Positions 4,071 to 57,876 of a stretch of 64,000 nucleotides of DNA are shown here, in pieces (the first letter of the stretch is position 1; each line of letters opens with the position of its first letter). The notes under the pieces are model-generated. The model did not search any database, was not told the DNA's origin, and saw only the letters and a list, made by a program, of their open reading frames with translations. The DNA comes from Ipomoea triloba (Eukaryota > Streptophyta > Magnoliopsida > Solanales > Convolvulaceae), in contig NC_044925.1 of the NCBI RefSeq assembly GCF_003576645.1, positions 11,175,860-11,239,859 on the forward strand. The letters are read 5' to 3'. The position numbers were made by a program, and so were the translations under genes.

Positions 4071-4861
4071 TTAGGTGATAGTAAATTGGGTGACAACAAT
4101 AATGGGCAGTGCAATATAATCATTCCTTCAGAGTTTGTATTTCAATACGAAGGTGATCCTCTTGCAGCCATTGTTGATAGCACTTTCCCGTCATACAGGA
4201 GCGGTAACATGGAGACTAGTCAACTTCATAGTAGAGCCATATTGGCTCCAACACTAGATGTGGTCGATCATGTTAATGAGTACATGAACAGTTTGAATAA
4301 ATGTTCGGCACAAACATATTTGAGTTGTGATTCCGTGTGCAAGTCTGATTCAAATGCTGATATATTAGCTGAAGTCCACACGACGGAATTTTTAAACAGT
4401 TTGAGGTGTTCAGGTGTACCAAACCATTCTCTATCATTAAAGGTTGATTCTTCAATTGACCATTCATTGAGTCTTTGTAATGGAACACGGTTGATTGTGT
4501 CCAAATTAGGAAACCATGTCATTGAAGCAAAAATCCTATGTGGACACCATGCAGGGACATATGTCTTAATATCAAGGTTGGCATTGACGCCTTCAGATCC
4601 AATACTTCCTTTTAAATTTCAAAGGAAATAATTTCCTGTCATGTTGTCATACGCAATGACAATCAACAAGAGTCAATAACAGACATTATCACATGTTGTA
4701 TTGTTGCTTAAAAAATCAATTTTCAACCATGGGTAGTTGTATGTTGCAGTTTCAAGAGTTAGTAATCCAGACGGTGTGAAAGTTGTAATTAATGATGATC
4801 ATAGAGGGATTCTTAACACTACTCAAAATGTTGTTTACAAAGAAATTTTTAATAATTTGTA
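4071..4861 (+). pseudogene. Helitron helicase (Pif1-like) C-terminal fragment
   Basis: The translation matches the C-terminal part of plant Helitron RepHel/Pif1-like helicases. In order it shows the RAILAPTLDVVDHVNEYM segment, TYLSCDSVCKSD, the FLNSLRCSGVPNH stretch, LCNGTRLIVSKLGNHVIEA and TPSDPILPFKFQR. A stop at 4629-4631 replaces the usual glutamine. The frame then continues with FPVMLSYAMTINKSQ, the conserved helicase motif, before breaking again. A tail, VAVSRVSNPDGVKVVI and onward, is readable at about 4744-4861. The N-terminal Rep domain and the ATP-binding motifs are missing. It is a dead relic, and no Helitron 5' TC or 3' CTRR end could be assigned. Confidence 0.85.
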
Positions 4862-6413: not shown

Positions 6414-9400
6414 TGTAATACCCCGTATTTTCCTAACATTATTATTTTATCCTAAGGCGTTGACATTCATAAGTTATGATCTTCAGATATTTCAAAAGAA
6501 TTTTTATAAGTGAGTATAGTTGTTATTAAGCTGCGATCGTACGTCCCGGTCACGAACCGTAAAAAAATTTAGGAACTAGTATTCGGACCTGTTTGTCTTA
6601 GGAAATGGATTTTTAGACACCAAACTATTATTCTGGAATTTCCTATTTAATTAAATTAGCCCATAGCAGCAAAAATTTATTTTTGATCGTACATCGCGAA
6701 ATTTCGCGGTGTACCGAACCTAGCCCAATTTTGAGTTTCAGTCTGAGATAAATTTTTAGTTTCGGAATTATTCCTATTTAAATTATTTCCTACCGAAATT
6801 ATATCTGTTTTGACCCTTACCAGTCCAATTGAAGATATTTTTCTTGAGTTACCATAAGATTTTGACACTTGTCACCATTTCTAGCCACATGTTATTATTT
6901 AATTAATTCTTGAAGATGATCCAAATAATGTGGCTTATCCTACAAGCTCCCTCATATAATATATAAGCTTTGTCTTTAATTTTTTTTCCATTTCCCTTCA
7001 AATTGCCGAAATCAAAGAGAGAGAGAGAAAGTGTGATCATCTTCATCTTCTTCACCATTTTTCCTCCATTAAAGCTTGCTTCCATAGCCAAGTTTCTTCA
7101 CAAGTGTCAAACTATTCGGTAAAACTTCGATTTTATTCGGTGGAAAGCTTTGTTTTTCCTCCTAGAGCATGAATCTAAGCTTAAGTTCTTAATATTTGTT
7201 GTTATGGTGTTGATTTTGATCTTAGGGTTTTGAGTAAATTGGGGGAAAAGATCCAAAATTCATCCTACGGTGTTAATATACTCTCAAGGAGGTAAGGAAT
7301 CCCTTTATTTGGTTGAGGTTATTTGAAACTAGATAATTGATAGCTAGGTTGTGAATTGTGGTTGATTGGTGTACATGAAATCTATGTGTTATGTGAAAAT
7401 TATGTGTTTAACTTGAGGAACTCTTAGATGGTTCAAGAAATTACTCTTTGAATTTTTGGTAGTTTTTGTGTACATGTTCATAGCTAATATATGCATGTAT
7501 ATGTTGTATTTATGTCCATATAGGCTTATACTTGTGAAAATATTGAAAATCAAGATAGATTTCTGGCAGTAACTTCCGAGATTTATTGGGAAAATTTGGG
7601 AAGGTATTTTGATCCTATTTTCTTCAGATATGTATTTCAATAAGTGTAGAACCTGCATATAAAATTTCATAATGATCGGAGTAGTATAAGTATGGTTTTC
7701 GAATTTTTTTCCAAAACTGGTCCAGAGAGAAAAATTCTGGACAGCACACTGCCAAGGGCAAAAATGGAATTTTCTGTGTTTATTCGCGGATCAAAATGAT
7801 CAAAACTTTTTATGGACATTAAGTGCTATGAGTTGGGGTTCTACCATAAACATTTCAAGTGAAAAAGAGTTCGGGAATTATTTTTACCGGCTCAATCTTT
7901 CGGACTGCGCCAAGCTGAAATTTTCTTATAAGGAGGTGGTATTATGTACATGTAAAGAGTAAATGTATTTTGTGTATTATGCCTATGTTAAGGTTGGGAA
8001 GTACATATGTTATATGTATTGAGATGTATGTGTCAAGTATGGAACTTATGTGAAAAATGTGGGGTTGGAAGTGTAGAATGGTTACACTTGATTTACCATT
8101 GTGAAGGGTTGTTAGTGGATTATCTAAATGTTTTGCAAGAGAAAAGGGAAATTTCCGGATTTGGTTAAAAGGGGGAATCGATTTCCGAGTATTGGAATTG
8201 ACTCAAGTATGTCCAAAATATTTTCAAAGCAAGAAAAGGGAAAAGGTGGAAAAATGTTTTCAAACCTTAGTTCTAGTAAAAGTGGTGAAGGACCTTGTCT
8301 TGCAGCCTACGGGATAGAGAGCTTAAAGTGCCTTCCCGTATGGTGGTTATGTTATTGTATGACCAGTTCATACTGTGGGCGAAGTCTATTCGCCGAGTAC
8401 TATATCACCCGGAAGGAAAAGGGTCTCCTGCGGGGGTGTGCACACTTAAGTATAGTCACTCTATTTTCGGGTAGGGGTCGTTCTTATGAACCTAGTGAGG
8501 CTAGCTAGGAATCATTCCAACGCTCCTATAAGTCCAGGGGATCAGTATTAGACCGGGCGATGACCACTGAACCCGAGTTGAACGATCCAAGTGGTCAGTC
8601 AAAAGTGGAGAAAGGATACTCTAGAGGCCTCACACTCACTTTCTATCTAGGACCAAGTGGATTTTTAAATATGAATGTAGTTACGCTGTAGCTACGGAAA
8701 GGAGATATGTGACAAGTATTGAAAATACCCAAAGGTTGTGGGTGATATCTCTTTGAAAAGTGAAAAGTGAAAACACCCAAAGGTTGTGGGTGATCTCTCT
8801 TTGAAAGGTGAAAAGTGATGAGAATTCCCTTTTGAGGGAAAGTTTTTGCAAATAAAGTGATTGAGAGCAAGGTGTGGAATTTGTGTTTTTCCATTACTTG
8901 CTTGCATGCCTAAATGTTTAGCCTTATATTCTTTGGGTGAGTAAATGATCTTCAAATGACCTCGTCTAGAGGGAAAATGATTCAAGATGATGTTGAATTT
9001 TGCCTAATATGTGTGCAAGTTGCCATTTATAACTGTTGCAGGTAGAATCCCTGCTGATGAGTAAGGTATAGGGTTTCCATGTAAAAAGTTTTACCAAAAC
9101 CTTTATTTAGTTTTGAATAACCCGCGGATATCCTTGCTTAGCCGTCGCGCTAACTACACTACAATGTGTTTTCTGTTAACAGATGTTATATAGGGTGGGT
9201 TCCTGTAGCCCGATGAGCTCTGAATAGGATGGGAGTCGAGGTTGGGGTCTACTCTTTGATGTAGACAGGGATTGTTGTTAATGTTGTAAATTTAGCCTGT
9301 GCACTTAGAGTGGAGTTTGTCAAAGAGGTGATAGAATTCACTCTAGGTGTGGCGGTAGCACCCAGTTTTCTGCCTATAAGATGTAAGCTTCCGCAGCATA

Positions 9401-9449
9401 TGAATACTGATTTGTAATAAATGTAAGAGTTGAAAATTGGGGTGTTACA
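6414..9449. mobile_element. Solo LTR of a Ty3/Gypsy element (Tekay/Del type)
   Basis: A 3,036-bp block starts TGTAATACCCCG and ends GGGGTGTTACA, with TSD GACCG on both sides (6409-6413 and 9450-9454). Long LTRs with TGTAA-ACCCC inverted ends are typical of plant chromoviruses of the Tekay/Del group. No gag or pol is present, and the block is not itself bounded by two copies of an LTR, so it is a solo LTR left by LTR recombination. A plus-strand TATA-like ATAATATATAAGC lies near 6955 and an imperfect 55-bp duplication lies at 8722-8818. ORFs inside (for example 8128-8508) show no domain. Confidence 0.85.
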
Positions 9450-9454
9450 GACCG

Positions 9455-10561
9455 CATCTGAGTTGTCACAATAAACCTTTAACGGCTTAGAAATAGAATC
9501 CATAATTCTAAGCCCTGAAATGAAATTCTTAAGCCATACATCTTGAGATGTAGCCTTAAAACAAGAAACGAACTCGGCTTCCATGGTTGAAGTGGTGACA
9601 AGAGTTTGTTTAACACTTCTCCATAAAATAGCTCCACCTGCCATAAGGAAAATGTTTCCCGAAGTTGATTTTCGAGAATCAACGCAACCGGCAAAGTCCG
9701 CGTCAGAGTACCCAACAATGTCCAAAGTGTTCATCTTCCTGAACACAAGCTTATAATCCTTGGTACCTCTGAGATACCTCAAAACCTTCTTTGCAGCTCT
9801 CCAGTGGTCTAAACCTGGATCACTTTGATATCGTCCCAGCATTCCAACAACAAAGGCGATGTCCGACCTAGTACAGACTTGAACATACCCGAAACATCCG
9901 ACAACCGAAGCATAAGGAATATTCTTTATTGATTCTCTTTCAAAATCATTCTTTGGGCACTGGTCCAAACTGAATTTATCACCTCTCACGATAGGAGCTG
10001 GACTCGGTGTACAATCTTTCATCCGAAATCTTTCTAAGAATTTGTTGATATAGGTTTCTTGCGATAGTCCCAAAATTCCCCGGGATCTATCCCTATGGAT
10101 CTTTATGCCAATGATATAAGATGCATCACCCATATCTTTCATATCATAGTTTTTAGAAAGGAACTGTTTAACCTCGTGCAACATTCCCTTATCATTTGAT
10201 GCAAGCAAAATATCATCCACATATAAAACAAGAAAACAAATTTTACTCCCACTTGTCTTCTGGTATATACAGTGATCTAGGATACTTTCAACAAAACCAT
10301 ATGATGAAATGACTCCGTCAAACTTGATATACCATTGGCGGGAGGCTTGTTTTAAACTATAAATGGACTTTTTGAGCTTGCAAACCAAATGATTGCCTTC
10401 ACTAGAAGAGAATCCTTCAGGTTGTTTCATATAAACCACCTCTTCTAGATCACCATTAAGGAATGACGTTTTCACATCCATTTGTTGCAATTCAAGATTG
10501 AAATGTGCAACCAAAGCCAAGCTTATGCGAAGTGAATCTTTCTTTGATACAGGAGAAAAGG
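9455..10561 (-). pseudogene. Copia reverse transcriptase and RNase H
   Basis: The minus-strand frame contains reverse transcriptase motifs QQMDVKTSFLNGDLEE, PEGF, and the catalytic LYVDDILLAS. It then has RNase H motifs [20 protein letters not shown] and TTSTMEAEFVS. The frame is open from about 10520 to 9455, where the solo LTR interrupts it. A TAG stop near 10563 separates it from the upstream RT start. The apparent C-terminal extension down to 9249 is translated solo LTR, not element protein. Confidence 0.88.
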
Positions 10562-10562
10562 T

Positions 10563-10901
10563 CTACGTGTAATCAATTCCTTCTTTTTGATTGAATCCTT
10601 TAGCAACGAGCCTAGCCTTGTATCGCTCGATGTTGCCTAATGAGTTCTCTTTAGTCTTATAGACCCATTTACAGCCAATGGCCTTGTCCCCATTAGGCAA
10701 CTCAACAAGGTCCCAAACCCCATTGCTCCGCATAGAATTCATTTCTTCCTTCATAGCTTCAAACCATAAATCAGACTCTTTACAATTTATGGCCTGTGAA
10801 AACGTTTCTGGATCATTTTCAGCTCCAACATCAGACTCTTGCAGATACACTATGTAATCACTAGGAATTACCGATCTTTTATCTCGAACAGATCGCCTCA
10901 A
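10563..10901 (-). pseudogene. Copia reverse transcriptase N-terminal part
   Basis: Reads LWFEAMKEEMNSMRSNGVWD, GCKWVYKTKEN and ARLVAKGFNQKEGIDYT, the conserved start of Copia reverse transcriptase. It ends in a premature TAG just after GIDYT. The next ORF continues the domain in the same orientation. This nonsense codon is one of several lesions showing that the outer Copia polyprotein is dead. Confidence 0.87.
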
Positions 10902-10939
10902 AGTTGAACTACAATCTCCTCGAGAAGTTAGTGGTTCAA

Positions 10940-11334
10940 CTACCGTTTCAGGAATTTCCTGAATGGTTGTTCGGTTGATATAATATCAGCATCTCGTAGA
11001 ATTTCCTCAATAGGTTGTTCAATACCCGTTTGATCTTGAGGGGTGCTTGAATCTATTATCAACCTATATGATGATGTAGAAGAACAAGATTCAATATGAT
11101 CATGATTAGAAATCAAATAACTGAATTTATCCCTCCCACTAATCATGTCATTTTCAAGAAACTTAGCATTTCTTGATTCCACGATCCTAGTCGAATGAGA
11201 TGGACAATAAAATCTATACTCTTTGGAGAACTGTGCGTATCCAATAAAGAAACCACTAATAGGTCCAACTTCTTTTCTTGTGGGTTATATATCCTTACCT
11301 CAGACGGGCATCCCCAAACACGCATATGTTGCAA
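10940..11334 (-). pseudogene. Copia integrase to RT linker, frameshifted
   Basis: Minus-strand pieces read HMRVWGCPSEVRIYNPQEKKLD and, in another frame, MESRNAKFLENDMISG. These are typical of the region between the Copia integrase core and reverse transcriptase. Frame changes and stops separate the pieces. Confidence 0.75.
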
Positions 11335-11343
11335 ACTTGGTTT

Positions 11344-11887
11344 CTAACCTTTAAATGACTCAAATGGTGTCTTTAGGACAGCCTTGGTTAGAACACGGTT
11401 TAATATATATGTTGCCGTCTTAAGCGCTTCGGCCCACAAAAACTTAGGAAGTTTGGAGTTGCTAAGCATACTCCGCACCATGTCAATAAGCGTTCGGTTT
11501 CTTCTTTCAGCAACACCATTTTGGTCCGGAGAACCAGGCATGGTATATTGGGCAACAATCCCATGTTCTTGAAGAAACTTAGCAAATGGACCAGGTGTTT
11601 GTCCACTTTCAGTGTACCTACCATAGTATTCACCACCCCTGTCGGATCTTACTATCTGTATTTGTTTCCCACATTGGTTCTCAACTTCAGCCTTAAAAGA
11701 CTTGAAGGCATCCAATGCTTCATTTTTATTATGAACCAAATACACATTAGTAAATCGCGAGTAATCATCAATGAAGGTGATGAAATACTTCTGACCTGGC
11801 ATATCCATATCTTGACAGCAAATGTCAGTGTGTATGATTTCCAATATGCTTGAACTCCTTTTGGCACCTTTCTTAGACTTGTTTGTC
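11344..11887 (-). pseudogene. Copia integrase core
   Basis: The minus-strand frame shows the DDE integrase: IHTDICC and [20 protein letters not shown], then [12 protein letters not shown], then [20 protein letters not shown]. The catalytic aspartates are still present. The frame is broken at both ends, with [10 protein letters not shown] followed by a stop at 11344-11346 where the family continues. Confidence 0.88.
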
Positions 11888-12363
11888 TACTTTCCCTTTA
11901 TGCAGTCTATACAAGTCTCGAAATCAGTATAATCAAGAGTACTAAGTACCCCATCATTTACTAATCTCTTTATACGTTCAAGGGAGATATGAACTAATCT
12001 CCGATGCCATAACATGGAGGAGTTCTCACTATTACTTGATCTTTTGGAACCGGAATGAACATGCAATGAACTGTAAGTGGTATTGTCTTGTAAATGCAAA
12101 CGATAAAGACCATCAGACATTGTACCGTATCAAACACAAGTTGATTTATTAAAAATATCAAAACACTTGTCTTGAAAATTAAAGGAAAAACCCAACGGCA
12201 CAAGTCGTGAAATTGAAATCAAGTTTCGGGAGAAACTTGGTACAAAAAATGTCTTATTTAGAACCAAAACAAAACCAGTATTTAGAACCAGCTTGCATGT
12301 TCCAATTGCTTCCACTTGCGACCCCATCTTGTTTCCTGATAAGATAGTCCGCTCATTTCCCAC
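11887..12363 (-). pseudogene. Copia protease and GAG-pre-integrase region
   Basis: Minus-strand pieces include FVPSFSRNLISISRLVPLGF and LWHRRLVHISLERIKRLVND, followed by the CIDCIKGK zinc-binding end. These match the protease tail and the HHCC GAG-pre-integrase domain of Copia polyproteins. Stops and frame changes separate them. Confidence 0.8.
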
Positions 12364-12451
12364 CAGCTTCCTCAGATTTTACATTCCCTCTAAAGAGTTT
12401 GCAATGTGGGTTGTTGTCCCAGAATCAATCCACCAAGTATTAGCGTTAACT

Positions 12452-13485
12452 TCAAGACATATTAGATTCATAACAAATGAATGAGGATAGATTACCTTTC
12501 TTCTCGACCCACTTCTTGTACTTGATGCAATCTTTCTTCATGTGTCCCTTCTTTTTACAGAAGAAACACTTATGCACCTTTTTTATGTCAGCTTGAGGCG
12601 GAATGTTTCCATTCCCCTTAGCCTTAGAAGTGGAACCTCGAGATTTGCTAGATTTAGACTTGTCTCGTGCCGTAGCTAGCATAGCAGTTTCACCCATCTC
12701 CATCACCAATCTACCTTCTTCTTTAACACACATGGTCATTGAATCATTTAATTTATAGACCATTTTTCCTTATGTGTGTTATAAGAGATTTTAAAAGGTC
12801 CGTACGATGATGGTAGGGTGTACAAAGCATAATACACGAGAAAGTCATCCGACATATCTACCCCAAGAGTCTTAAGTTGAGCCACAATGTCACGCAATTC
12901 CATGATGTGTTCATGCACACCTTTAACGAAAGTGAGACGAAGAGAGGAGAATCTCATGATGAGGGTGCTTGCTAAAGCTTTTTCTGATGTGACGAAATAG
13001 TCGTCAATAGCCTTGAGCAATGCTCGGAAATCCTTATGTTTCTCACTAACGGAACCCCGAATCCTATTAGAAATTTTCGCATTGATGTACATTGAGCTGA
13101 GCCGATTGGATCTATCTCATCGCTCATATAGCGCAACCTCATCTTGGGTACTTTCTTTAGTGGGAACTGGCGGTTTCTCATTGTGAATAGCGTAGTCCAA
13201 GTCTCTCCACCCTAGATTAAGAAGAATAGTTTCCTTCCACATCTTATAGTTGTCGCCCCTAAGTTCTGGATCTTCAATGTTCAAATCTGTGTGAGTAACG
13301 GATTGAGATGCTGTAAAGGTAAAGGTTTGGATTAGAATATTGAGGCATAGATAGAACTGAATTGCATACATTACCAATGTAAATAATGCATATCCTAGAT
13401 CCGAATGCCATAAAAATTGCCTGTGGGCTAAATTTTTACGTAGAATGGACCTTGAAAAATTAGAATAGAAATGAGATGGGTACAA
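12452..13485 (-). pseudogene. Copia gag with CCHC zinc knuckle
   Basis: Minus-strand segments read RGDNYKMWKETILLNLGWRD, then FRALLKAIDDYFVTSEKALA and MELRDIVAQLKTLGVDMSDD. The zinc knuckle is KCFFCKKKGHMKKDCIKYKK (C-X2-C-X4-H-X4-C). Segments are in different frames, so this gag is decayed. Gag binds and packages element RNA. Confidence 0.85.
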
Positions 13486-15165: not shown

Positions 15166-15170
15166 TAATT
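15166..15170. repeat. Target-site duplication TAATT, left copy
   Basis: TAATT precedes the left SIRE LTR and follows the right one at 26767-26771. Confidence 0.92.
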
Positions 15171-17123
15171 TGTTGGTCCCGAATGGGTGGTGAAAAGTCT
15201 AGAGGGGGGGTGAATAGACTTTTCAAGCAAATTAAAAATTAATAACACTTTAACTAAAAATAATTCCAAGTGAATAAATTGAACTTGAAATGCACAGCGG
15301 AATAAAGTACGTAAAATGCTATAATTAAAACGCAGTGAAGGAGAGGAGATATATCACATGCAATACGATAGAAATACTTGGAATAGCTCAAATGTGATAT
15401 ATAATAAATTTGACTTGCATGCGGACGTAAGAGATAACAAATAATAGCAAACCCAGATAAGAATGAATAGTGATGAATAGTGACGAAATAGTAACTGGGT
15501 TTAGAAAATATTATGCTGCAAATTAGAGTGTGTGTGTGAGCATGAATATTATGTGTGCAGAGCAAAAATATATATGGGCAGTAAATAAATGAGAGAGAGA
15601 TTTTTAAGTGGTTCGGCCAAACCCAGCCTACGTCCACTATACTCCTTTCACTATCTTCAATCACCCAGATACAATAGTGAACACCAAGTGCCAACCCAGC
15701 ACTTCTATCTACACCTAGTAGATATTGAGTATTTCGCACAAAGCTATACTCCTACACCAACGAGTGTCTCGCACAAAGCTACACTCCCCAGGGTTTTCAC
15801 AAGCTTCTCTTGTTACTCAGCCCTCTGTCTACACTCAGTAGAAATTTTGATACAAGGTAGTAAAAGAAAATATTTTTCTCCAACTCTCAGGAACTAAAAA
15901 TATGGATTTTTGGTTTTTCGGATTTTTCTTGCTTTGCTATTCTCAGATGTATCACACTGCTTTTCTTGCCTTTCACTTGTATATCTCTATTTTTCTTCTT
16001 GCTCAAGTGTCTCGTATTTATAGCTGATGAAAGAATTAATCCGTTGGAAAAGATTAATTCTTTATTGTTGATGTGCTTATTGCAGTCTCCGTATTTCTTC
16101 CGCTTCCTGATATTCCTCCTGATCCTCCTTTCCCTCCTGAAATTGCTCCTTCTTCTTTTCCTTATATTCCTCCTGAAATTGCTCCTCTTTTCTTCTGGCC
16201 TTAATTCCGTTGGAGAGTTGAGTTGATATAGAGTTGATATATTCCACAATGTAGTCAGATTACTTTGAGTTGAGTTGATATATTTATTCCACAATTCATA
16301 TTATTTTGTAGTGTAGTGTTTGTAGACATATTCCATTTTGTAGTGTAGTGTTCAATCTCCAGATATTCTTCATCTGTTTGGAATGTAGTAAATAGACCTA
16401 TTCTCCTTATTTTCGTATCTCCGTACCTCCACCACAGCTCAAAACCATTTTGAGCAAATCAGTCAAATATATCCGTTGAAGTGAACAAATCAGATTTATA
16501 CACCTTTGTCTTTTTGTGTTTGTATGACTTCCTTGTAATATTCTTCTTTTGTCCTTAGTGTTTGTATTACTTCCTTGTAATATTCCTTCATTTGTCCTTA
16601 GTGTTTGTATTACTTCCTTGTAATATTCCTTCATGAATTTTCGCATCTTCCATGTGCATTTTCGCAGTCTTCAATGTGCATTTTCATCTGAATTAATTTT
16701 TCTCAAAATAAACTCTCCTGGGATTCGAACACAGTACCACTTAGATCATTTTCCAAGTTCAACTCCAATGCTCTGCTCAATCCTTTGTTTACTATGCCTG
16801 TAAATAATATATGAGTAGTAATATTCTGAGAAGTTCTGATTTCCTAAAATTTCGTGGCTTAGGGGATTCGAACCAGAGACCCTTCATCATGTATACAAGT
16901 CTTCTACCATCTCTGCTGCTTCAACCATTTGCTACTTCTAGTGCTCCAATTAAATTTAAGCTCCGTCCGATTCGAACATAGTTCCTTTATTCTCCAAGAA
17001 TTCTTCTAAGTGGACTTCTTAACTCTTTTAGATACATACCTCTACGAAATTTTTGGCTTTCTAATTTTTCAAACTAAAATACATTTTTGGCTCATCAAAA
17101 TCTAAATACAAATATTCCTAACA
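15171..17123 (-). repeat. 3' LTR of the SIRE element
   Basis: 1,953 bp from TGTTGGTCCCGAATGGG to AATATTCCTAACA. In element sense (minus strand) a CTATAAATACGAGACA TATA box lies at about 16028-16014. A 42-bp unit (TTTGTATTACTTCCTTGTAA with its spacer) is repeated three times at 16516-16636. Three tRNA B-box-like TTCGAATC sites occur at 16721-16730, 16862-16873 and 16969-16977. Confidence 0.93.
16721..16977 (-). promoter_or_regulatory. Three tRNA B-box-like sites in the SIRE LTR
   Basis: On the minus strand the LTR carries TGTTCGAATCCCAGG, CTGGTTCGAATCCCC and TGTTCGAATCGGACGG about 110-140 bp apart. The middle one fits the RNA polymerase III B-box consensus GGTTCGANNCC. Each is preceded by weakly tRNA-like sequence. 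No complete cloverleaf tRNA could be drawn. The second LTR has the same sites. Confidence 0.45.
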
Positions 17124-17141
17124 ATTTCCCCCTTTTTGATG
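17124..17141 (-). other. Polypurine tract of the SIRE element
   Basis: The minus strand reads CATCAAAAAGGGGGAAAT immediately next to the 3' LTR. It would serve as the plus-strand DNA primer site. Confidence 0.8.
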
Positions 17142-17985
17142 ATGCCAAAACCTATACTCAGTCATTTGGCTTAGTCTTTGAAAAATATAAACTTCAAAAA
17201 TTTTCATTTTATTTCGACTAGCCATAGATGAGTTTAACAATGATTTTTGACTTAGAAGAATTGTTTTCAGACAATAAAATTCCTACATGCATTATTGAGA
17301 CTGGTTTAATTCATTTTAAAATATTTCTCAATCATGCATTTATACAAACTAAATCAAAAACAATTCTTCATACCAAAAAATTAAAATAACTTGTACTGAA
17401 TAACTCCTTCCCCCTAACTCCTTCCCCCTATGTATATGCCAAGAATAAATAAAGAACATGTATACCAAATATTTACCTCTTTGCGATCCTTTTTTTTTTT
17501 TTTTTGGACTTCTTTTGCACCAAATGACTTCTTTTGCACCAAATGACTGTCATTCTTTTCCCCCTTTTTGACATCATCAAAGAACCACTGGATATTCTTT
17601 TCCCCCTTTTTGACATCATCAAAGAACCACTGGATACGAATGAAATTCTTGCTCACATCATCAAAGAACCACTGGATACGAATGAAATTCTTGCTCTTGA
17701 ATCATTTGCGCCATGGTGCATTTGCTTGCTTCTGTCACAAGTGCAAAAAAAAGTTGAGTACTCCACAAAATACGGTACGAGACCCTAGTAATAGGATCAT
17801 CCTAACTATTTCCCGACAAGGCATAGCACCTATTGATCACTATTCCCTTGTGACAAAACGATTGAAAAACCGCGATTGTCGAGAACAGTAAGAGGCGATA
17901 ATTGATATCTTTCGACGGTACGACCTTCCTTGAAATACTCAATTGGTTTGAACAGTGTTAACATTCTCACATCGATTCTCCTTGC
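17142..17985. repeat. SIRE spacer with repeated PPT-like units
   Basis: No gene. CTCCTTCCCCCTA occurs twice at 17402-17430. TGACTTCTTTTGCACCAAA is duplicated at 17507-17546. The unit TTCCCCCTTTTTGACATCAT, followed by CAAAGAACCACTGGATA, occurs twice complete and twice without its pyrimidine tract between 17549 and 17695. On the element sense strand each complete unit contains a polypurine tract like the one beside the LTR. Confidence 0.75.
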
Positions 17986-17994
17986 TATAAATTC
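17986..17994 (+). promoter_or_regulatory. TATA box of the RWP-RK gene
   Basis: TATAAATTC preceded by CTTGC, 52 bases upstream of the start codon at 18046. This is ordinary spacing for a plant TATA box with a short 5' UTR. It is on the plus strand, opposite to the retrotransposon. Confidence 0.6.
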
Positions 17995-18045
17995 ACCATT
18001 CGTCTTTCCATCAATCTGCTTGATTTTATAGCTTACATAAAAGAA

Positions 18046-18991
18046 ATGGAAAATACGACATATCCCTCATCTTCGGATAACTCTTCCTTTTGGGATGACA
18101 TTATCGTATCACCGTTAAGAGATAGTGCACAAAGTATAGATCGTACTGCTGTCGAAAATTTTGAAAATGCTCCACCAGAGTCGATTGATATAATTACTCC
18201 ACCAGGTGTTACGGGTACAGATGTTGTGGCCGTTGATCAAGGTACTGCTGTAGTAGCGGAGGAAGATAATACCACTGCAGCGCTAGATGTAGCAGCTATG
18301 AATGCAAGTGTATTTCGTGGGAGAAAGAGAGCTAGAAGAACATTTTGTGATACTACCACGCTAACTTTTGAAAAATTTTCTGAATATTTTTATCTGCCTT
18401 CTGAACAAGCTGCAGAGGAATTGCAGGTTGGGCGCGAAGTTTTTAAGAAAAAGTGTAGGGAAGTGGGAATTTCCTACTGGCCTTATCGAAAACTCGTGAG
18501 TCTGGACAGATTATTGGCAAAAGTTCAGGTAATTTCTATATTCCTATATCTTTTTCAACTTAACATTTTCGAAGGGGGTTTAACAAAGTGTGATATAGGA
18601 ATTTGGTGAAATCAAGGATCAAGCTGAACTGCAAAGAACAATTAAGGGGCTGGAGGACGAGAGAGATGCGATACTTCAAAATCCAAATTTAGACTTGGCT
18701 GAAGCAACAGTAAGGCTTAGAGACAAATGTGATAGGAATAGTTCTAGAAAGAGAAGGTATATAGATCCAGCAGCTTTTCCTTCAACTACTCCTGGAAGTT
18801 CATCACAAGCTCCTATATTTTCTGATATTCCTGAATTAGCACCGGAAGCTTTTCCTTCCACTACACCTGGGAGTTCATCACAAGCTCCTATATTTCCTGA
18901 TATTCCTGAATTAGCACCAGAAGAAATACAGGAGGTACTTGCTTGGCTAGATGAGGATGATCCTCCTCCCAAAAATATTAGCGACAAATAA
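18046..18991 (+). CDS. RWP-RK domain transcription factor carried antisense in a SIRE retrotransposon
   Basis: Exon 1 is 18046-18528 (161 codons), then a 70-bp GT...AG intron (18529-18598), then exon 2 at 18599-18991 ending in TAA. The phases match and give a 291-residue protein. Residues about 105-158 form an RWP-RK DNA-binding domain: LTFEKFSEYFYLPSEQAAEE, then VFKKKCREVGISYWPYRK and SLDRLL. The first residue of the signature is Y instead of R (YWPYRK at 144-149). A basic RGRKRARR patch lies just before the domain. Exon 2 starts with a charged, coiled-coil-like stretch. It then carries a 24-residue tandem duplication (AFPSTTPGSSSQAPIF and continuing) and an acidic tail (WLDEDD). RKD-type RWP-RK proteins are nuclear regulators of egg-cell and embryo programmes. 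The gene has its own TATA box and no stops. It lies between pol and the 3' LTR of the SIRE element, antisense to it. Confidence 0.85.
18770..18925 (+). repeat. In-frame 72-bp tandem duplication in the RWP-RK gene
   Basis: The segment encoding EAFPSTTPGSSSQAPIF followed by (S/P)DIPELAP occurs twice in tandem in exon 2, with few differences between copies. The frame is preserved. Confidence 0.85.
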
Positions 18992-19091
18992 GCATAGAGA
19001 GCATGGATGGAGAATACTATGTATAAAAAAAAATCTCTTTAGATCATGTATAGGCGTACTGCAAGTAACATACGAAAGCATCACAATTTTA

Positions 19092-19122
<31 letters not shown>

Positions 19123-19414
19123 NNNNNNNNNNNNNNNNNNNNNNNNNNNNNNNNNNNNNNNNNNNNNNNNNNNNNNNNNNNNNNNNNNNNNNNNNNNNNN
19201 NNNNNNNNNNNNNNNNNNNNNNNNNNNNNNNNNNNNNNNNNNNNNNNNNNNNNNNNNNNNNNNNNNNNNNNNNNNNNNNNNNNNNNNNNNNNNNNNNNNN
19301 NNNNNNNNNNNNNNNNNNNNNNNNNNNNNNNNNNNNNNNNNNNNNNNNNNNNNNNNNNNNNNNNNNNNNNNNNNNNNNNNNNNNNNNNNNNNNNNNNNNN
19401 NNNNNNNNNNNNNN
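19123..19414. other. Assembly gap (292 N)
   Basis: Run of N directly after an (AT)n microsatellite at 19092-19122. Predicted ORFs crossing it are meaningless. Confidence 0.98.
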
Positions 19415-19454
19415 CATATACTTGAGCTATAATTAGAGATTAAGATTTAGATAC

Positions 19455-22400
19455 TTAGCTCAATTCAATCATGCCCATTTCATGCCTTAGAGTGATGAAT
19501 CTTGATTCGCATAAAGGCTTTGTAAGGATGTCTGCAATTTGATTTTCAGTGGATATGTACTCAATCTTTAGATCTTTCTTTTCGATGTGATCCCGGATGA
19601 AATGGTGTCTTACATCAATGTGCTTGGTTCGTGAATGAAGTACAGGATTTTGGGTAATCGCGATTGCACTAGTATTGTCACAAAAAATACTAACATCATC
19701 GCAATTAATTCCATAATCCTTTAACTGTTGTTTCATCCACAAAATTTGTGCACAACAACTCCCTGCTGCGATATATTCTGCTTCGGCTGTGCTTGTCGCA
19801 ATGGAGTTTTGTTTCTTACTAAACCAAGAAACTAACCTTCCCCCTAAGAACTGGCACGTCCCTGAGGTACTTTTTCTATCAATTTTGCAACCTGCAAAAT
19901 CTGCATCTGAAAATCCTGTTAGTTCAAAGTTACCTTCTTTTGGATACCACAGTCCAACGTTGATAGTGCTTTTGAGGTAACGAATAATTTTCTTGGTCGC
20001 AAGAAAATGACTCTCTTTGGGTTGTGATTGGAATCTCGCACATACACCTACTGAATATGATATGTCGGGTCTACTTGCAGTGAGGTATAGCAAAGATCCA
20101 ATCATTCCTCGATACTTCGTTTGATCAACATCTTTGCCTTCTTCATCCTTGTCCAGTTTGAGAGATGTGCTCATTGGAATTTTGACTGAGCTTTTTCCTT
20201 CTAAGCCGAATTTCTTGATAAGATCTCTTGTGTATTTGGATTGATTAATGAATATACCTTCCTTCGATTGTTTGACTTGCAATCCAAGAAAGTAATTTAG
20301 TTCTCCCATCATGCTCATTTCGAATCTGTTTTGCATAAGCTTAGAAAATTTCTCACATAAATTGGCATTAGTACTTCCAAAAATAATATCATCAACATAA
20401 ATTTGTACTAATAAAATATGATTATTTTCTTGAATTCTAAATAAGGTTTTGTCAACAAGGCCTTTGGTAAAACCACAACTAATTAAAAACATTGATAGGG
20501 TATCATACCAAGCTCTAGGTGCTTGTTTTAACCCATATAATGCCTTCTTTAGTTTATAAACCTTGTCAACTTCACCTTGTACCTCAAATCCGGGTGGTTG
20601 TTCAACATATACTTCCTCTTCAAGTAAGCCATTAAGGAATGCACTTTTCACGTCCATTTGATAAACCGTGAAATTCTTGTATGCAGCGTAGGCTAGGAAA
20701 ATTCGGATCGCTTCAAGTCTTGCAACTGGGGCAAAAGTCTCATCAAAATCTATTCCTTCTTCTTGAGAATATCCCTTTGCCACTAGCCTTGCTTTATTCC
20801 TAACAATGATGCCATCTTCGTTTGCTTTGTTCCTAAAGACCCATTTAGTTCCAATAACATTGTGATTTTTTGGTCTTGGGACAAGCTCCCAAACATCATT
20901 TCTTTTGAATTGATTCAATTCTTCTTGCATAGCCTCAATCCAACTTGCATCACTTAAAGCTTCGTCAATTTCTTTCGGTTCCATTTGAGATAGAAAGCAT
21001 GCAAACAAAGCATCCCTTGTAGAAGATCTTGTTTTCACACCATCGTGCAAGTTTCCAATAATAAGATCTTGAGGGTGATCTTTGAGCCATTTCAAATCTG
21101 GTTGAAAGTTGTTTAGGGGAGAGGATGACAGAGTAAGGTTATTTGTAAGTGGGATTGAGAAAGATGGGTTTTGGTTTGTAGAGTTGGTTCCATCCTCATT
21201 TCCAAGGTCAGCCTCAACTTCATCACCTACTGCGTCATTTATGTACTGCTTTCCAATTTCAGTGAAATTTAATTCTAGATCATTTAACCCCTGTAAAACA
21301 TCATCTTCAGAAGAATCATTAGTAACACTTAAATCATTATGGACGTTCTTACCCATATTTGGAGTATTTGGTTCTTGGATTTTTGGTGATTCATCAAATA
21401 CAACATGAATTGATTCTTCTACCACCACTGTCCTTTTGTTTAGTATTCTGAATGCTCTACTGGTAGACGAATATCCTAAAAATATTGCTTCATCTGCACG
21501 CTCATCAAATGTTTTTAGATACGATTTACCATTATTAAGAACAAAACATTTGCAACCAAAAGAGTGAAAATAGCTAAGATTAGGCTTTCTCCCTTTCCAT
21601 AATTCATATGGTGTCTTGTTGTATATTTTGTGAATCATGCTTCTGTTCTGAGTATAACAAGCAGTGTTGATAGCCTCCGCCCAAAAACGTTTGGGTAGTT
21701 CGGCTGCTGAAATCATGACCCGTGCAGCTTCTTTAAGTGTTCTATTTCTTCTTTCGGCTACACCATTTTGTTGTGGCGTCCTTGCGGCAGATAGTTGGTG
21801 CAAAATCCCTTGTGAACTGCAGTAGGCCTGAATCACACCATTCACGAATTCTGTACCTCTGTCTGTACGGATTTTGGAGATTTTTGCGTCCTTTTCGTTT
21901 TGAAGTTGTTGCAAGAGCTCTGGCAATCTTTGTTCCACTTCGTTCTTCTTATTGATGAATATCGTCCAAGTGTACCTGGAAAAATCATCAACAACAACAA
22001 GAGTATATTTCTTACCACTTATACTTACCGGGTCTACTGGACCAAAGAGATCCATATGTAGTAGACTAAGAGGTCTTGATGTAGATTCTTGTGTCTTAGA
22101 TTTGAAAGAAGACTTGATTTGCTTTCCTTTCTGACACGCATCACAGATTTGATCCTTCTTGTATACAATGTTGGGTAAACCTTCAACTAACTTACATTTT
22201 GCAAGCTTGTTAATAGACTTGAAGTTTAAGTGATTTAATTTCCTGTGCCATTCCCAACTCGTAGTGCTTGAGTTATTTGCCATTAAACATACAGAGTCCT
22301 TCGTTGCGCTCCAATCAACCACATACATATTTTTCTTTCTCCTTCCGGTGAGCACAGTTTTCTTTGTGGATTCTTCTTTAACTCGGCATTTGTCTTTGAA

Positions 22401-22655
22401 GAACTCTACAAGATATCCTTTGTCACAGAATTGGCTAGTGCTAAGGAGATTAAACTTTAGTCCTTCTACGTATGATACATTTTCAATCCTTAGACCATTC
22501 TTGATAACAGTTCCGATTCCCTTTGTTATTCCATGATCATTTCCACCAAATATGACTTTTGGTCCTTCGATATTTCTGAACTCTACAAGACTAGCTTTAT
22601 TGCCGGTCATATGTCGAGAACATCCGCTATCAAAGTACCAAATATCCTGCAACAC
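19455..22655 (-). CDS. pol: SIRE-type Copia pol polyprotein (protease, integrase, RT, RNase H)
   Basis: One open frame of 1,066 codons. In order: protease start [15 protein letters not shown], then the GAG-pre-integrase HHCC region ([18 protein letters not shown] and CDACQKGKQ). The integrase core follows ([52 protein letters not shown]), and then reverse transcriptase ([20 protein letters not shown], catalytic [10 protein letters not shown]). RNase H closes the protein ([39 protein letters not shown]). All catalytic motifs I can check are intact, so it may encode active enzymes. The frame opens just after 22668 and differs by one base from gag. Pol expression would therefore need a frameshift, or one LTR copy has a small indel. 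Confidence 0.93.
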
Positions 22656-22657
22656 AA

Positions 22658-24748
22658 TTAAGTATTTTTAGGTACCCAGATTTGTTTGGGTCCTTCCTTG
22701 TTAGTGATTTTAGGCATCCAAACCCACCTAGATCTCATTAATCCAAGATTAGGTGATTTGTAACCATTGACAGTATTATAATTATAAGGAATTTGGACAT
22801 TCTTTTTGTGGGCTGGCATTTGTCCAACATTCATTTGTTTAATAAAATGAAATGCGTTGAACCTCGTTTTTGTCCATGGTTTGATTTCATCATGCCAGTC
22901 CTCTTCAGTAGGATAATCCCTACCAAACCTCATCATCGGAAATTGTTTCCTATGAGGTCTTTGCGCAGTTGACTCATTGGTAAATCTCTTACGAGAACCA
23001 AACTCATGCTTTTTAAAATTCTGCATTGGCGAAAAATTATTGCTTTGAAGCTTCGGCCTTGCAGTGTTTATTCTAGCATTAGTTTGATAACCAATTCCTT
23101 GTCTCATAGTGCTATCTTGACTTTTGACAAATTTTACTACTTGGGCTTTATTAGTTAAAGAAGTAGTAGAATTAGTCAATTTTTCAGAAATTTTAGAACA
23201 TGTAGGATCATAGCCCAGTCCGGCTTTATCTCCTGAGGGTTTTTGCATATTTACCATTTTATCCATTATTTTGGATGAATGTGTAAATGATGCTATTGTC
23301 TCCCTAAGATTATGTTCTCTAATTTCTCTAGCTTTACACTCTTCTTGAAGGCGAATATTTTCAGCTTTCAAGTTTCTCATCTCAAGTAAAGCATTTTGCA
23401 ATTTCTCATTTATTTTATCTTTTTCAAGAATTAGAGAATCATTGCGCTCTTTGAGTTGAGAATGAGTGTCCATAACAGTTTGACAATCTTTCATTAATTG
23501 AAATATAGATTCTCTAGAAAAAGATGAATTTACATAATCAAAAGATTTAGATGTTACCTCGTCTTCTTCTACTTCATGCGCCATTAGGCATTTTTCTTGG
23601 AAATCTGATTCACTGGTTATGCTTAGAAGACACAGCAGTGCAGTATCCTCCGTTGAGCTATCACTTTCATCACTTGAAGATTCCTCAGACCCACTTGTCT
23701 CAAGAGGGTCACTTATTAAAGCTTTCCTTTTATCCTTCTTGAATCTTCTATCCTTTGATTCAGATATTTCCTGTGGAGAGTTAGAAGTATTTTTATTTTG
23801 ATTTTTACTTACCTTGGGGTATGGACATTCTGCCATGAAATGTCCTGGTTTTCTACAGTTGTAACACAAGTTTGTGTTATCATCAGAAAATTCCCTTCTT
23901 GGTCTTTTGGATGAACTTCCTTGATTTCTTTGAGATGAATTGTTGAAGTTGTTTTTCCACATGAATTTTTTGAATTTCCTAACAAGTAAAGCAAATTGTT
24001 CGTCAGATAAAAAATCATTATTTCCTACTAACCTTGAGTTTGATGGTTGTTCGGCTACTAAGGCTGTGATTCTTTCTTCACGTTCCTCCTCAAGTTTTGA
24101 TTTCATCTCGAACTCGTACGCTTTGAGATCACTAAAGAGTTTGTCAGTTGAAACAGTTTTTAGATCCCTATGATCTCGCATGGCTGTCACTTTCATATCC
24201 CAGCTTGACGGTAGTCCGCGGAGTATTTTGAGAGAGATTTCTTTCTGATTAATGGTCTTTCCAAGATCACTAATTTCTCCCAAAACTTTGACCAGTCTAG
24301 CCTCCATGTCCGCAATGTTTTCACTTGGCAGCATCTTGAAGTCTTCAAACTTTTTCATTGCAATTGTGAGTTTGTTGTCTTTTTCCTGTTCGTCTCCTTC
24401 GCCGATTTGGATTAAGACATCCCACACGTCTTTAGCTGTTTTGCACTTACGGATTTTTGGGAAGATTGTATCATCCACAGCTTTGAACAGTATATCCTTA
24501 GCTATATTGTCCAGGTTACTTCGCAATCTATCGTCAGAAGTCCATTCCATCTTTGGCTTTGAAACATACTGCGGTCCATCTGGGCTTAGGATTGATGAAG
24601 GATTGACCTTCATGATTTCAATAGGACCATCTGAGATAACATCCCACATTTCATCGTGAAGAGCGGATAAATGTACCTGCATGCGTATTTTCCAATCATC
24701 AAATTTGTCAAGAGAGAATAATAAGTTCTGAGCTAAATCTTTCTTCAT
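22658..24748 (-). CDS. gag: SIRE-type gag (nucleocapsid) protein
   Basis: An open frame of 696 codons starting at ATG 24748, about 50 bp after the primer-binding site. It begins [20 protein letters not shown] and contains the Copia gag core ([20 protein letters not shown], then [11 protein letters not shown]). It has a CCHC zinc knuckle, [20 protein letters not shown] long coiled-coil-prone C-terminal half follows ([20 protein letters not shown]), as is usual for the enlarged SIRE gag. The product would assemble virus-like particles and bind element RNA. It ends in TAA at 22660-22658. The stretch 24749-24799 is a short leader. Confidence 0.92.
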
Positions 24749-24799
24749 TTTGAAGATTAGATCTGTCTAGCAGTCAAGATTTGACTCAAATAGACAACT

Positions 24800-24811
24800 G
24801 CTCTGATACCA
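24800..24811 (-). other. Primer-binding site of the SIRE element
   Basis: The minus strand reads TGGTATCAGAGC, the complement of the 3' end of plant initiator tRNA-Met. It is two bases from the 5' LTR. Confidence 0.92.
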
Positions 24812-24813
24812 CT

Positions 24814-26766
24814 TGTTGGTCCCGAATGGGTGGTGAAAAGTCTAGAGGGGGGGTGAATAGACTTTTCAAGCAAATTAAAAATTAATAACACTTTAACTAA
24901 AAATAATTCCAAGTGAATAAATTGAACTTGAAATGCACAGCGGAATAAAGTACGTAAAATGCTATAATTAAAACGCAGTGAAGGAGAGGAGATATATCAC
25001 ATGCAATACGATAGAAATACTTGGAATAGCTCAAATGTGATATATAATAAATTTGACTTGCATGCGGACGTAAGAGATAACAAATAATAGCAAACCCAGA
25101 TAAGAATGAATAGTGATGAATAGTGACGAAATAGTAACTGGGTTTAGAAAATATTATGCTGCAAATTAGAGTGTGTGTGTGAGCATGAATATTATGTGTG
25201 CAGAGCAAAAATATATATGGGCAGTAAATAAATGAGAGAGAGATTTTTAAGTGGTTCGGCCAAACCCAGCCTACGTCCACTATACTCCTTTCACTATCTT
25301 CAATCACCCAGATACAATAGTGAACACCAAGTGCCAACCCAGCACTTCTATCTACACCTAGTAGATATTGAGTATTTCGCACAAAGCTATACTCCTACAC
25401 CAACGAGTGTCTCGCACAAAGCTACACTCCCCAGGGTTTTCACAAGCTTCTCTTGTTACTCAGCCCTCTGTCTACACTCAGTAGAAATTTTGATACAAGG
25501 TAGTAAAAGAAAATATTTTTCTCCAACTCTCAGGAACTAAAAATATGGATTTTTGGTTTTTCGGATTTTTCTTGCTTTGCTATTCTCAGATGTATCACAC
25601 TGCTTTTCTTGCCTTTCACTTGTATATCTCTATTTTTCTTCTTGCTCAAGTGTCTCGTATTTATAGCTGATGAAAGAATTAATCCGTTGGAAAAGATTAA
25701 TTCTTTATTGTTGATGTGCTTATTGCAGTCTCCGTATTTCTTCCGCTTCCTGATATTCCTCCTGATCCTCCTTTCCCTCCTGAAATTGCTCCTTCTTCTT
25801 TTCCTTATATTCCTCCTGAAATTGCTCCTCTTTTCTTCTGGCCTTAATTCCGTTGGAGAGTTGAGTTGATATAGAGTTGATATATTCCACAATGTAGTCA
25901 GATTACTTTGAGTTGAGTTGATATATTTATTCCACAATTCATATTATTTTGTAGTGTAGTGTTTGTAGACATATTCCATTTTGTAGTGTAGTGTTCAATC
26001 TCCAGATATTCTTCATCTGTTTGGAATGTAGTAAATAGACCTATTCTCCTTATTTTCGTATCTCCGTACCTCCACCACAGCTCAAAACCATTTTGAGCAA
26101 ATCAGTCAAATATATCCGTTGAAGTGAACAAATCAGATTTATACACCTTTGTCTTTTTGTGTTTGTATGACTTCCTTGTAATATTCTTCTTTTGTCCTTA
26201 GTGTTTGTATTACTTCCTTGTAATATTCCTTCATTTGTCCTTAGTGTTTGTATTACTTCCTTGTAATATTCCTTCATGAATTTTCGCATCTTCCATGTGC
26301 ATTTTCGCAGTCTTCAATGTGCATTTTCATCTGAATTAATTTTTCTCAAAATAAACTCTCCTGGGATTCGAACACAGCACCACTTAGATCATTTTCCAAG
26401 TTCAACTCCAATGCTCTGCTCAATCCTTTGTTTACTATGCCTGTAAATAATATATGAGTAGTAATATTCTGAGAAGTTCTGATTTCCTAAAATTTCGTGG
26501 CTTAGGGGATTCGAACCAGAGACCCTTCATCATGTATACAAGTCTTCTACCATCTCTGCTGCTTCAACCATTTGCTACTTCTAGTGCTCCAATTAAATTT
26601 AAGCTCCGTCCGATTCGAACATAGTTCCTTCATTCTCCAAGAATTCTTCTAAGTGGACTTCTTAACTCTTTTAGATACATACCTCTACGAAATTTTTGGC
26701 TTTCTAATTTTTCAAACTAAAATACATTTTTGGCTCATCAAAATCTAAATACAAATATTCCTAACA
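24814..26766 (-). repeat. 5' LTR of the SIRE element
   Basis: 1,953 bp, the same length as 15171-17123. The only differences I noticed are one base in the GATTCGAACACAG(T/C)ACC stretch and one in TTCCTT(T/C)ATTC. It carries the same TATA box and B-box-like sites. Confidence 0.94.
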
Positions 26767-26921
26767 TAATTTCAAATGCAAAACTATTGCATAGTTCATA
26801 CATCTAAGAAATTATACATTTATATGCATTCAAATAGGCATAATAGATTTTCAAGAAAAATATATTGCATATCATATCCAAGAAAATATATATCATGCAA
26901 TATATACAACTAGGCAGAGAT

Positions 26922-33544: not shown

Positions 33545-34798
33545 CTAACTCAATGCGAAGGGAGTTTCACCAGTAGCCCAACTTGGCGTTGTGCGATAGG
33601 TCCAAAGAATGCTGTCCAGTTCTTCAACCCACGCCCCGCCAGCTGCCTCCAATTTCCTCTTCAAACCATCAAGGATGGTTCTATTGACATTTTCTACTTG
33701 ACCATTCGCCTGGGGGTATGACACCGCCACCCGACTGTGCTTGATGCCCCATTGAATGGGGATTACTTGAATGGGGATGCCGAAGCGACATAGTATATTT
33801 TTCTCTACGAACTTCTTACATCTAGCTGCTGTGATACTAGCTAGAGGTTCAGCTTCCACCCACTTGGTGAAGTAGTCAATGGCCACAATAATATACTTCC
33901 GGTTTCCCGAGCCCGTGGGAAGGGCTCCCACCAAATCTATTCCCCACCTTGAGAAAGGAATTGCTGTACTCACCGGAGTATAATTGGTTGCAGGTCGTCC
34001 TGGAAATGTCTGAAACTCTTGACACTTGGGGCATCGCCTGGCGTATTTTGCGCAATCCTTCAACATCTTAGGCCAGAAGAAACCTTGCAACATGATGCGT
34101 CGAGCTATGGTGTACGCCCCCTGATGCGCGGAACACACTCCTTCATGGACTTCTTTCATTATCAACTCTGCTTCGTCAGGGTATACACACTTCAAGACTC
34201 GTTTATATAACATGTCTTCCAGTATCACGTAGCTGGATGCTCGTAACCTTGTCAGCTTTGCATCTTGCTCGTCCAATGGTAAAGTGTCGTCCTTCTTGTA
34301 CTTTGTGATGTGGTCAATCCAACATGGCTCTCTGGTTTGCACGGGGCAGACCCACGAGATGTCGATGCTGGATGTCTCCAAATCCTCAACCCGAGCAATC
34401 TTGCGAATGTGGCCGGGGATCCCCGTGCTCAGCTTGGAGAGCATGTCAACGTCAGCGTTCTGCTCTCGAGGTACCTGGTGGATTTCATATCCCTCAAATT
34501 CACGCAAGGTTGGCAGCACTGCGTCCCTGTATCTTTGCATGTTTCCTTCATTGGCCTCGTACTCCCCGGTCACATGGCCGACCACTAGCTTAGAATCACA
34601 TCGGATGCGAACTTTTTCTGATCGTAGTCCTGCTGCTAACCGTAGCCCGTTTAGGAGGGCCTCATATTTTGCTTCATTGTTAGATAATTTGAAGTGGAAC
34701 CTGATTGCATAGTAAGCGCGGAATCCTTCTGGGGTGATGAGCACTATCTCACCACCGCAACCTTTACTGTTGGATGAGCCATCCGTAAATAATGTCCA
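33545..34798 (-). pseudogene. Gypsy RNase H and integrase with lost catalytic segment
   Basis: RNase H starts at WTLFTDGSSNSKGCGGE (34798 downward), shifts frame near 34745, and continues with LSNNEAKYEALLNGLRLA and RIRCDSKLVVGHVTGEYEAN. The integrase has the HHCC zinc finger (HEGVCSAHQGAYTIARRI, CPKCQEF) and the first catalytic region (WGIDLVGALPTG, AIDYFTKWVEAEPL). The stretch normally holding the second catalytic aspartate (DNGTQF) is missing: FGIPIQVIPIQWGIKHSRVA runs straight to YPQANGQVE. Integrase is therefore inactive. Confidence 0.85.
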
Positions 34799-35087
34799 GG
34801 ACTATGTTGCTCAACCACTGGGGATAATAGATCTCCTTGACATGTCCTGCCTGTGCCAACGCGACCACCTCATTATTCACGAAGTCCCTTCGTTCGGCCG
34901 ACATATATCGCTTTCTTTGCTGTACTGGTTTCTTGGTAGGGTCCACGGCCAACTTATGGGTTATGATGTTTCTGTCGATACCTGGCATGTCTTCTGGACT
35001 CCACGCAAAAACTTCTTTAAATTGTCGGATGACCTCGACTATTTGAGCTCTCAGCTCTGGTGCCAACCCAGTGCCAATCTTTACCAC
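34764..35087 (-). pseudogene. Gypsy reverse transcriptase, N-terminal stub
   Basis: Reads VIRQFKEVFAWSPEDMPGID, then KKPVQQRKRYMSAERRDFVN and YPQWLSNI, the opening of a Tat-type RT. It then jumps directly into RNase H (WTLFTDGSS). The RT fingers/palm core, including the YVDD motif, is absent. Full-length relatives have several hundred codons between these two points. Confidence 0.87.
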
Positions 35088-35150
35088 CCTATCCGCTCAT
35101 GCGGGATCGACCACCACATCTTCTGTTTCAGATGCAGGCTCGGTGCGAGG

Positions 35151-35870: not shown

Positions 35871-36054
35871 GATCTGTTACTGTAACTTGGTCGTGTTCCC
35901 TTTTCTTACCACTCGAGGATGACTGTTCGAAGCTGTCATCCTTCTTCCAAACGTTTTTTGGTAGATTACGCGGAGGTTGTTGCTGGCCTCACTTTTGCTG
36001 GCCTGACCGTTTGACGAACTGTCTGAAATATCCCCTTTGGATGAGTTCCTCAAT

Positions 36055-41636: not shown

Positions 41637-42082
41637 GTGATGGATAAAAGTTGGATGAATGCTTCTCGAATTAGTCAAGAATACGATGATGGAGTTAAAA
41701 ATTTTATTAACTTTGCAAAGAATAACCTTCCGGGTAGTAATGAAAGGCTCCTTTGTCCTTGTAAGAAGTGTTGTAATCAGAAAATGTTATGTGTGAAAGA
41801 CGTATATGATGATCTAATCTGTCATGGGATTAATCCATCTTATACAAAATGGATATGGCATGGTGAAAGCAATGTGGCTACAACATCTAACATGTATGTC
41901 GACAACGAAGCAAATGAAGATGATGAGTCTGAAGATCAATTAGATGAAATGTTTCGTGATGTTGGAGAGGAGTTCACCGATCGGTCAAACGAGTTGGATG
42001 AATTATTGAAGGATTCAAAATTACCTTTATGGCCGGGTTGTAGTAAATATACGCGATTATCTGCTGTATTAAAATTATTTAA

Positions 42083-57265: not shown

Positions 57266-57275
57266 ATTTTTTATT

Positions 57276-57866: not shown

Positions 57867-57876
57867 ATTTTTTATT

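Follow-up and report, generated by a model that had tools for sequence, protein, structure and literature searches.

A SIRE-type Ty1/copia element on the minus strand of Ipomoea triloba DNA (15171-26766 of the 64,000-nucleotide stretch analysed here, hereafter the window) encloses a two-exon RWP-RK gene that is read from the plus strand (18046-18991) and encodes 291 amino acids with zero internal stops. The gene sits antisense to the element, between pol and the PPT cluster at the 3' LTR. Based on our data we propose that a SIRE-type Ty1/copia family of Ipomoea carries RWP-RK as a heritable antisense accessory gene whose product would serve the element, an explanation that we consider reasonably probable.

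The RWP-RK gene and the element that encloses it

Exon 1 (18046-18528, plus strand, 161 codons) encodes the RWP-RK domain at residues 106-153, and exon 2 (18599-18991, plus strand) contributes 130 codons and the stop. They are separated by a 70-bp GT-AG intron (18529-18598, plus strand), which is placed where alignments of I. triloba proteins to the window break. The frame is not due to chance, as the Pfam RWP-RK match (E 3.6e-17) scores 62.4 bits against a curated cut-off of 29.3; this one RWP-RK domain is the only Pfam domain of the 291-aa product. The initial annotation had credited the gene with its own TATA box. A TATAAA does lie at 17986-17991 (plus strand), 60 bp upstream of the ATG, and its role as the promoter of the gene is suggestive at most, the same motif arising in 11 of 500 dinucleotide shuffles of the surrounding 100 bp (17924-18023).

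The enclosing element is delimited by two LTRs of 1953 bp each, the 3' LTR at 15171-17123 and the 5' LTR at 24814-26766 (both minus strand), which were found by self-comparison as direct repeats with 2 mismatches and whose TG..CA ends were fitted. The target site duplication TAATT, hand-fitted to these ends, stands on the left at 15166-15170 and on the right at 26767-26771. On the minus strand the PBS TGGTATCAGAGC (24800-24811), which we take to be of the iMet tRNA type, begins two bases (AG) past the 5' LTR and is followed by gag (22658-24748, 696 aa) and pol (19455-22655, 1066 aa), each a single open frame; by arithmetic on the coordinates the two frames differ. Within pol the integrase (Pfam rve, residues 193-294) precedes the reverse transcriptase (RVT_2, residues 586-829), which is the Copia order. 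The linker beyond pol ends in a PPT cluster of five AGGGGGAA octamers on the minus strand (17126-17607; low coordinates 17126, 17408, 17422, 17558 and 17600). We looked for the remnant of a sense-strand env and rejected it: outside a run of 292 N, the longest sense stretch between stops is 120 aa and is the reverse of exon 2.

At 7e-9 substitutions per site and year, the two differences between the LTRs date the insertion to about 73,000 years ago. At 1.3e-8, a rate quoted within PMC10011142, the age is about 39,000 years. The run of N, an assembly gap at 19123-19414 preceded by a (TA)n run, had raised the concern that it hides a misjoin. This is unlikely, because near-identical LTRs and the same TSD flank both sides and because an Ipomoea batatas gene model (P0020, see below) spans the interval.

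Sireviruses are described as having a linker with several copies of one PPT octamer, the final copy lying 10 bp away from the 3' LTR, together with a C-rich integrase signal close to the end of the LTR (PMC2829016, in its account of these signals). In the window element AGGGGGAA occurs five times in the linker and once elsewhere (in pol), the start of the terminal octamer is 10 bp away from the 3' LTR, and seven consecutive C are found about 33 bp short of the LTR end. AGGGGGAA is a variant of the standard Sirevirus AGGGGGAG, of which the element has zero copies, and its terminal change is one reported for ToRTL1 and Tnd-1 (same account in PMC2829016). Together the Copia domain order, the octamers and the C run fit an assignment to SIRE. 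The element resembles Sirevirus (SIRE/Maximus) also in its large gag and in having pol in another frame, and differs from it in having the antisense two-exon RWP-RK gene where a sense env-like ORF would stand. A sense ORF downstream of pol, eORF-3'F, is reported for 74% of SIRE elements in the survey part of PMC6317226; the RWP-RK gene occupies its place on the opposite strand. That survey, as its text describes it, required uninterrupted ORFs of at least 250 codons and would overlook the present gene, since its exons have 161 and 131 codons.

These data bear out the structural core of the initial annotation, namely a stop-free 291-residue RWP-RK gene in two exons, antisense between pol and the 3' LTR of a young SIRE-type element with LTRs of identical length and TAATT on either side.

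Relatives of the gene in Ipomoea

Comparing the 291-aa product with 5.8 billion proteins returned 16 matching proteins, all 16 from Ipomoea, among which the exact protein of the window is absent. Seven clusters with I. triloba representatives (P0004-P0010, with 11, 3, 1, 4, 2, 2 and 1 members respectively, 24 sequences in all) share 69-99% identity with the product, and their representatives fall on contigs that have five different chromosome-scale lengths. A second search with an alignment as query (E limit 1e-6, scoring the 7995 candidates that share most words) again matched Ipomoea alone, 20 proteins of 20, and added P0019-P0022. Three of the proteins, P0014, P0015 and P0019, have 41-42% identity to the product and are located on three additional contigs. 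Within exon 2 of the window gene a stretch of 25 residues is duplicated in tandem (residues 220-269, about 18773-18922); the duplication is present in P0005 and P0006 and absent from P0007 and P0008. Judged by these matches, the RWP-RK gene is not peculiar to the window element. When viral contigs were searched with P0004, 7 stretches matched a pattern and none of them encodes a relative.

An AlphaFold model of P0004, built on a 9-sequence alignment, has a mean pLDDT of 51 and is too weak for a fold search; residues 101-160 reach block means of 64-78 and form helices. A profile of the clade described below, compared with solved structures at E up to 1, matched 23 sequences that include no RWP-RK chain and are all ribosomal protein L13/eL13 (best E 0.0039).

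Ten I. batatas models (P0003, P0011, P0012, P0013, P0016, P0017, P0018, P0020, P0021 and P0022) include exon 1, whole or in part, and cover it up to about its cryptic end. Alignment to the window shows that three of the ten join the RWP-RK exon to other sequence of the element: P0022 starts within the PPT array (17594-17728), P0003 includes the upstream linker (17814-17888), and P0020 passes from the RWP-RK exon into one that runs antisense to pol (21248-21319, matched over 24 residues at 79%, E 2.8e-8), in which 17 of the 18 residues past the junction agree with the window. The other seven have no element match outside the gene, bar alignments that extend at most 39 bp beyond the start codon on its upstream side. 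These computed models are surely mis-spliced in part, and yet the sequence that they join still shows the neighbourhood of the gene. P0013, P0017 and P0018 look like fused models, bearing the names of an endopeptidase, a shaggy-type kinase and auxin response factor 2, respectively, and would be either annotation errors or element insertions in or near those genes.

To place the gene among RKD proteins we used a hybrid query containing a generic RKD core, which matched 335 proteins at E up to 0.001; the best 120 of these comprise P0014, P0015, P0019 and 117 others. A tree was computed from 42 rows, namely the window protein, eight I. triloba proteins of its type (hereafter carried-type) and 33 of the 117 RKDs, with Ipomoea, Cuscuta and Nicotiana included. 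In this tree, which was rooted at its midpoint rather than by an NLP outgroup and which holds two distant host rows on long branches, the nine carried-type proteins form one clade with 100/100 support, separated from the 33 sampled RKDs by a stem 2.13 changes per column long, and divide into two supported subclades. The host-like Ipomoea RKDs P0023-P0026, P0029 and P0059 lie across that stem, and the proteins listed include no near-identical host donor gene. Since the stem is that long and the support is 100/100, the carried-type gene is, as far as the tree goes, an old and diversified lineage that was not recently copied from any present-day Ipomoea RKD listed.

The window protein has Tyr144 in place of the Arg of the RWPxRK signature (YWPxRK), and is for this reason filed here as RKD-like and not as a canonical RKD. 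The initial annotation had pointed out this Tyr; the change turns out to be shared by the carried-type clade and is not special to the window copy, 10 of 11 carried-type sequences having Tyr at this position and the remaining one Cys, as against Arg in 117 of 117 other RKDs among the best 120 of the 335 matches. Furthermore, of 36 positions with a conservation of 95% or more across 116 RKDs, 11 are changed in the window protein, and the RWP-RK scores of seven carried-type proteins (55.4-69.5 bits) stay below those of three host RKDs (80.2-82.5). The window protein resembles host RKDs in having one RWP-RK domain, a similar length and no further Pfam domain, and differs from them by its separate long-branch clade, the replaced signature Arg and the 11 changed positions of 36. 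The Tyr and the other changed positions could mean that DNA binding is weakened.

The initial claim that a captured gene now moves with the element can therefore be kept in part. Dispersed relatives in Ipomoea and the three element-linked I. batatas models speak for movement with the element, whereas a recent capture is not supported, as the gene is not a freshly captured RKD. In passages of PMC10011142 on the expansion of RWP-RK genes in pearl millet, elements are not named as its cause.

Possible role of the product and alternative explanations

As the gene is antisense, the genomic RNA of the element would carry only the complement of its 70-bp intron, which is no splice substrate, and the intron would thereby survive each cycle of retrotransposition. 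This argument had been put forward in the initial annotation and we judge it sound; the model of P0009 (I. triloba) translates through an intron that matches that of the window nearly letter for letter. A promoter of its own would give the gene a separate plus-strand mRNA, and its product would, with less certainty, be a nuclear DNA-binding protein. Less certain too is the step by which the product would be kept because it is useful to the element, with the LTR or promoters of host reproductive cells as conceivable targets, so that the activity of the element would be placed in cells where insertions are inherited. RKD proteins act in egg-cell and embryo programmes, and RKD4 is reportedly involved in early embryogenesis, so the benefit to the element may lie in activity in reproductive cells. 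The product would most likely be an accessory regulator of the element, a role also proposed for the antisense ORF of maize Grande and others like it.

It is conceivable, though we rate it as unlikely, that the family has adopted the RWP-RK factor, one of the egg/embryo-programme type, as its own regulator: antisense expression from a promoter of the gene itself would yield a protein that activates the LTR or a favourable reproductive-cell state, leading to transposition in the germ line. If so, a shift in DNA specificity would be what the change from Arg to Tyr reflects, and sweet potato and its relatives would possess, in the scattered copies, a store of mobile transcription factors.

The wider proposal of an accessory gene draws on the LTR pair, TSD, PBS and PPT array that surround the gene and on the linkage found in P0022, P0003 and P0020, as well as on the 16 Ipomoea-only matches, the dispersal of the seven clusters, the one supported clade and the variation and open frames described next. 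Against it stand the seven I. batatas models of ten without element sequence outside the gene, three of which are fused to other names, the changes in the domain that could weaken DNA binding, and the stop codon that the window has at the position of the first (Gly) codon of the antisense-pol exon of P0020.

Among four full-length members of one subfamily, namely the window protein, P0004, P0005 and P0006, 9 of 112 residues vary in the range 93-204, which was chosen after viewing the alignment, against 35 of 179 outside it (one-sided p 0.005). Single-pair tests of lower variation in this range gave p < 0.05 in 4 of 10 cases (range 0.006 to 0.56). In a neutral simulation the mean number of stops was 1.2 at a protein divergence of 8% and 3.7 at 25%, and 4% of the sequences were stop-free at 25%. 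Between P0004 and the window protein 4 residues differ; between P0004 and P0007 or P0008, members of subfamilies that are about 30% apart, the frames are still open. These open frames support a maintained protein and do not prove it, since gene prediction favours intact copies. In view of the sequences compared, the RWP-RK gene is probably kept for its protein.

The main competitor, possible and in our estimate somewhat unlikely, is that an ancient capture brought a host RWP-RK gene into the element, which has copied it without benefit to itself, the open frames reflecting the recent amplification of a few intact masters. Such a history agrees with the youth of the element (2 LTR differences) and the 4 residues that separate P0004, as close copies would stay intact without selection, with the 6 of 10 single-pair tests that are not significant, and with RWP-RK scores of 55-70 bits in the seven carried-type proteins against 80-83 in the three host RKDs. 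It does not sit well with open frames in subfamilies about 30% apart, considering how few simulated sequences are free of stops already at 25% divergence, nor with the pooled variation, which avoids the DNA-binding half of the protein.

Much less probable is that the useful product is an antisense RNA, pairing with the genomic RNA to regulate or silence the element. Such roles of transcripts are discussed for plant elements in passages of PMC7264820, and yet an RNA of this kind needs no open frame of 291 codons with a 62-bit RWP-RK domain. We give as little weight to a dispersed RWP-RK family of Ipomoea that spread by other means (tandem or segmental copies, or another transposon) and of which one member landed in this SIRE copy, for although the seven unlinked I. 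batatas models would agree with it and P0014, P0015 and P0019 could belong to one kind or the other, the gene is linked by three I. batatas models to three different parts of the element, which lie on both sides of the gene.

Parallels in plant elements and other features of the window

An extra ORF that lies antisense past pol, ahead of the 3' LTR, is described for maize Grande (gene23), RIRE2, Retand and PvRetro13; gene23 of Grande is transcribed from its own promoter and encodes a nuclear protein, and the antisense-ORF proteins show no clear similarity to others, bar SMC and Transposase_28 domains (PMC7264820, in the sections on these ORFs). The RWP-RK gene, an aORF-3R by its place and strand, shares both with these four examples, most of which are Gypsy elements, and is unlike them in having a plant transcription-factor domain, a Copia host and an intron. 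Domains of host type are also known from plant LTR elements, among them an AlkB-type demethylase in orchid Gypsy elements and a B3 domain in Aegilops tauschii (main text of PMC9289625). The same text reports 15 unusual domains from 121 angiosperm genomes under its filter, all in Gypsy and 0 in Copia elements, and neither RWP nor Ipomoea occurs in it. The present case is similar in that a host-type domain recurs in an element lineage, as does the plant DNA-binding B3, and dissimilar in that the RWP-RK carrier is a Copia element, while the 15 domains of that text are all in Gypsy elements. We found no earlier report of an RWP-RK factor in a plant LTR element in the titles, abstracts and passages of the literature among the matches listed. 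Hence, antisense extra genes and host-type domains in plant LTR elements are known, and the RWP-RK factor as such is apparently new.

A named transcription-factor domain in an antisense extra gene has DNA targets that can be searched for, and the idea that antisense extra genes regulate their element therefore becomes directly testable. In addition, some caution is due with Ipomoea annotations and expression studies, as the "RKD1-like" genes that they list in multiple copies may belong to retrotransposons. Transcripts of an RKD paralogue were reported at FPKM 18.4 in roots of I. batatas and not in those of I. trifida, and were read as a storage-root factor (PMC5234144, in its passage on this gene); they could derive from the retrotransposon gene described here.

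The window contains remains of several other mobile elements. A second Ty1/copia element at 9249-13485 (minus strand) is broken into several short frames, with RVT_2 in 9249-10520 (E 8.5e-45), and a third pol frame of this type, 755 aa long, lies at 59973-62240 on the plus strand (RVT_2, E 1.1e-78). Gypsy-like remains occupy 33545-37589 on the minus strand, with RVT_3, Integrase_H2C2 and a weak rve in 33545-34744 and Retrotrans_gag in 36228-37589. Remains of a CACTA-type transposon (41637-45194, plus strand) hold Transpos_assoc, Transposase_21, DUF4218 and DUF4216 in three frames; tandem repeats lie inside them at 43112-43385, and the frames are adjoined by two tandem arrays, whose periods are close to 100 and 59 bp (40480-40985 and 41068-41559). 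A frame at 4086-4631 (plus strand) with a Pif1 helicase 2B domain (E 4.8e-10) is perhaps, we presume, a Helitron remnant. Finally, about 590 bp at 57275-57867 match their own reverse complement at 81% and form a large palindrome.
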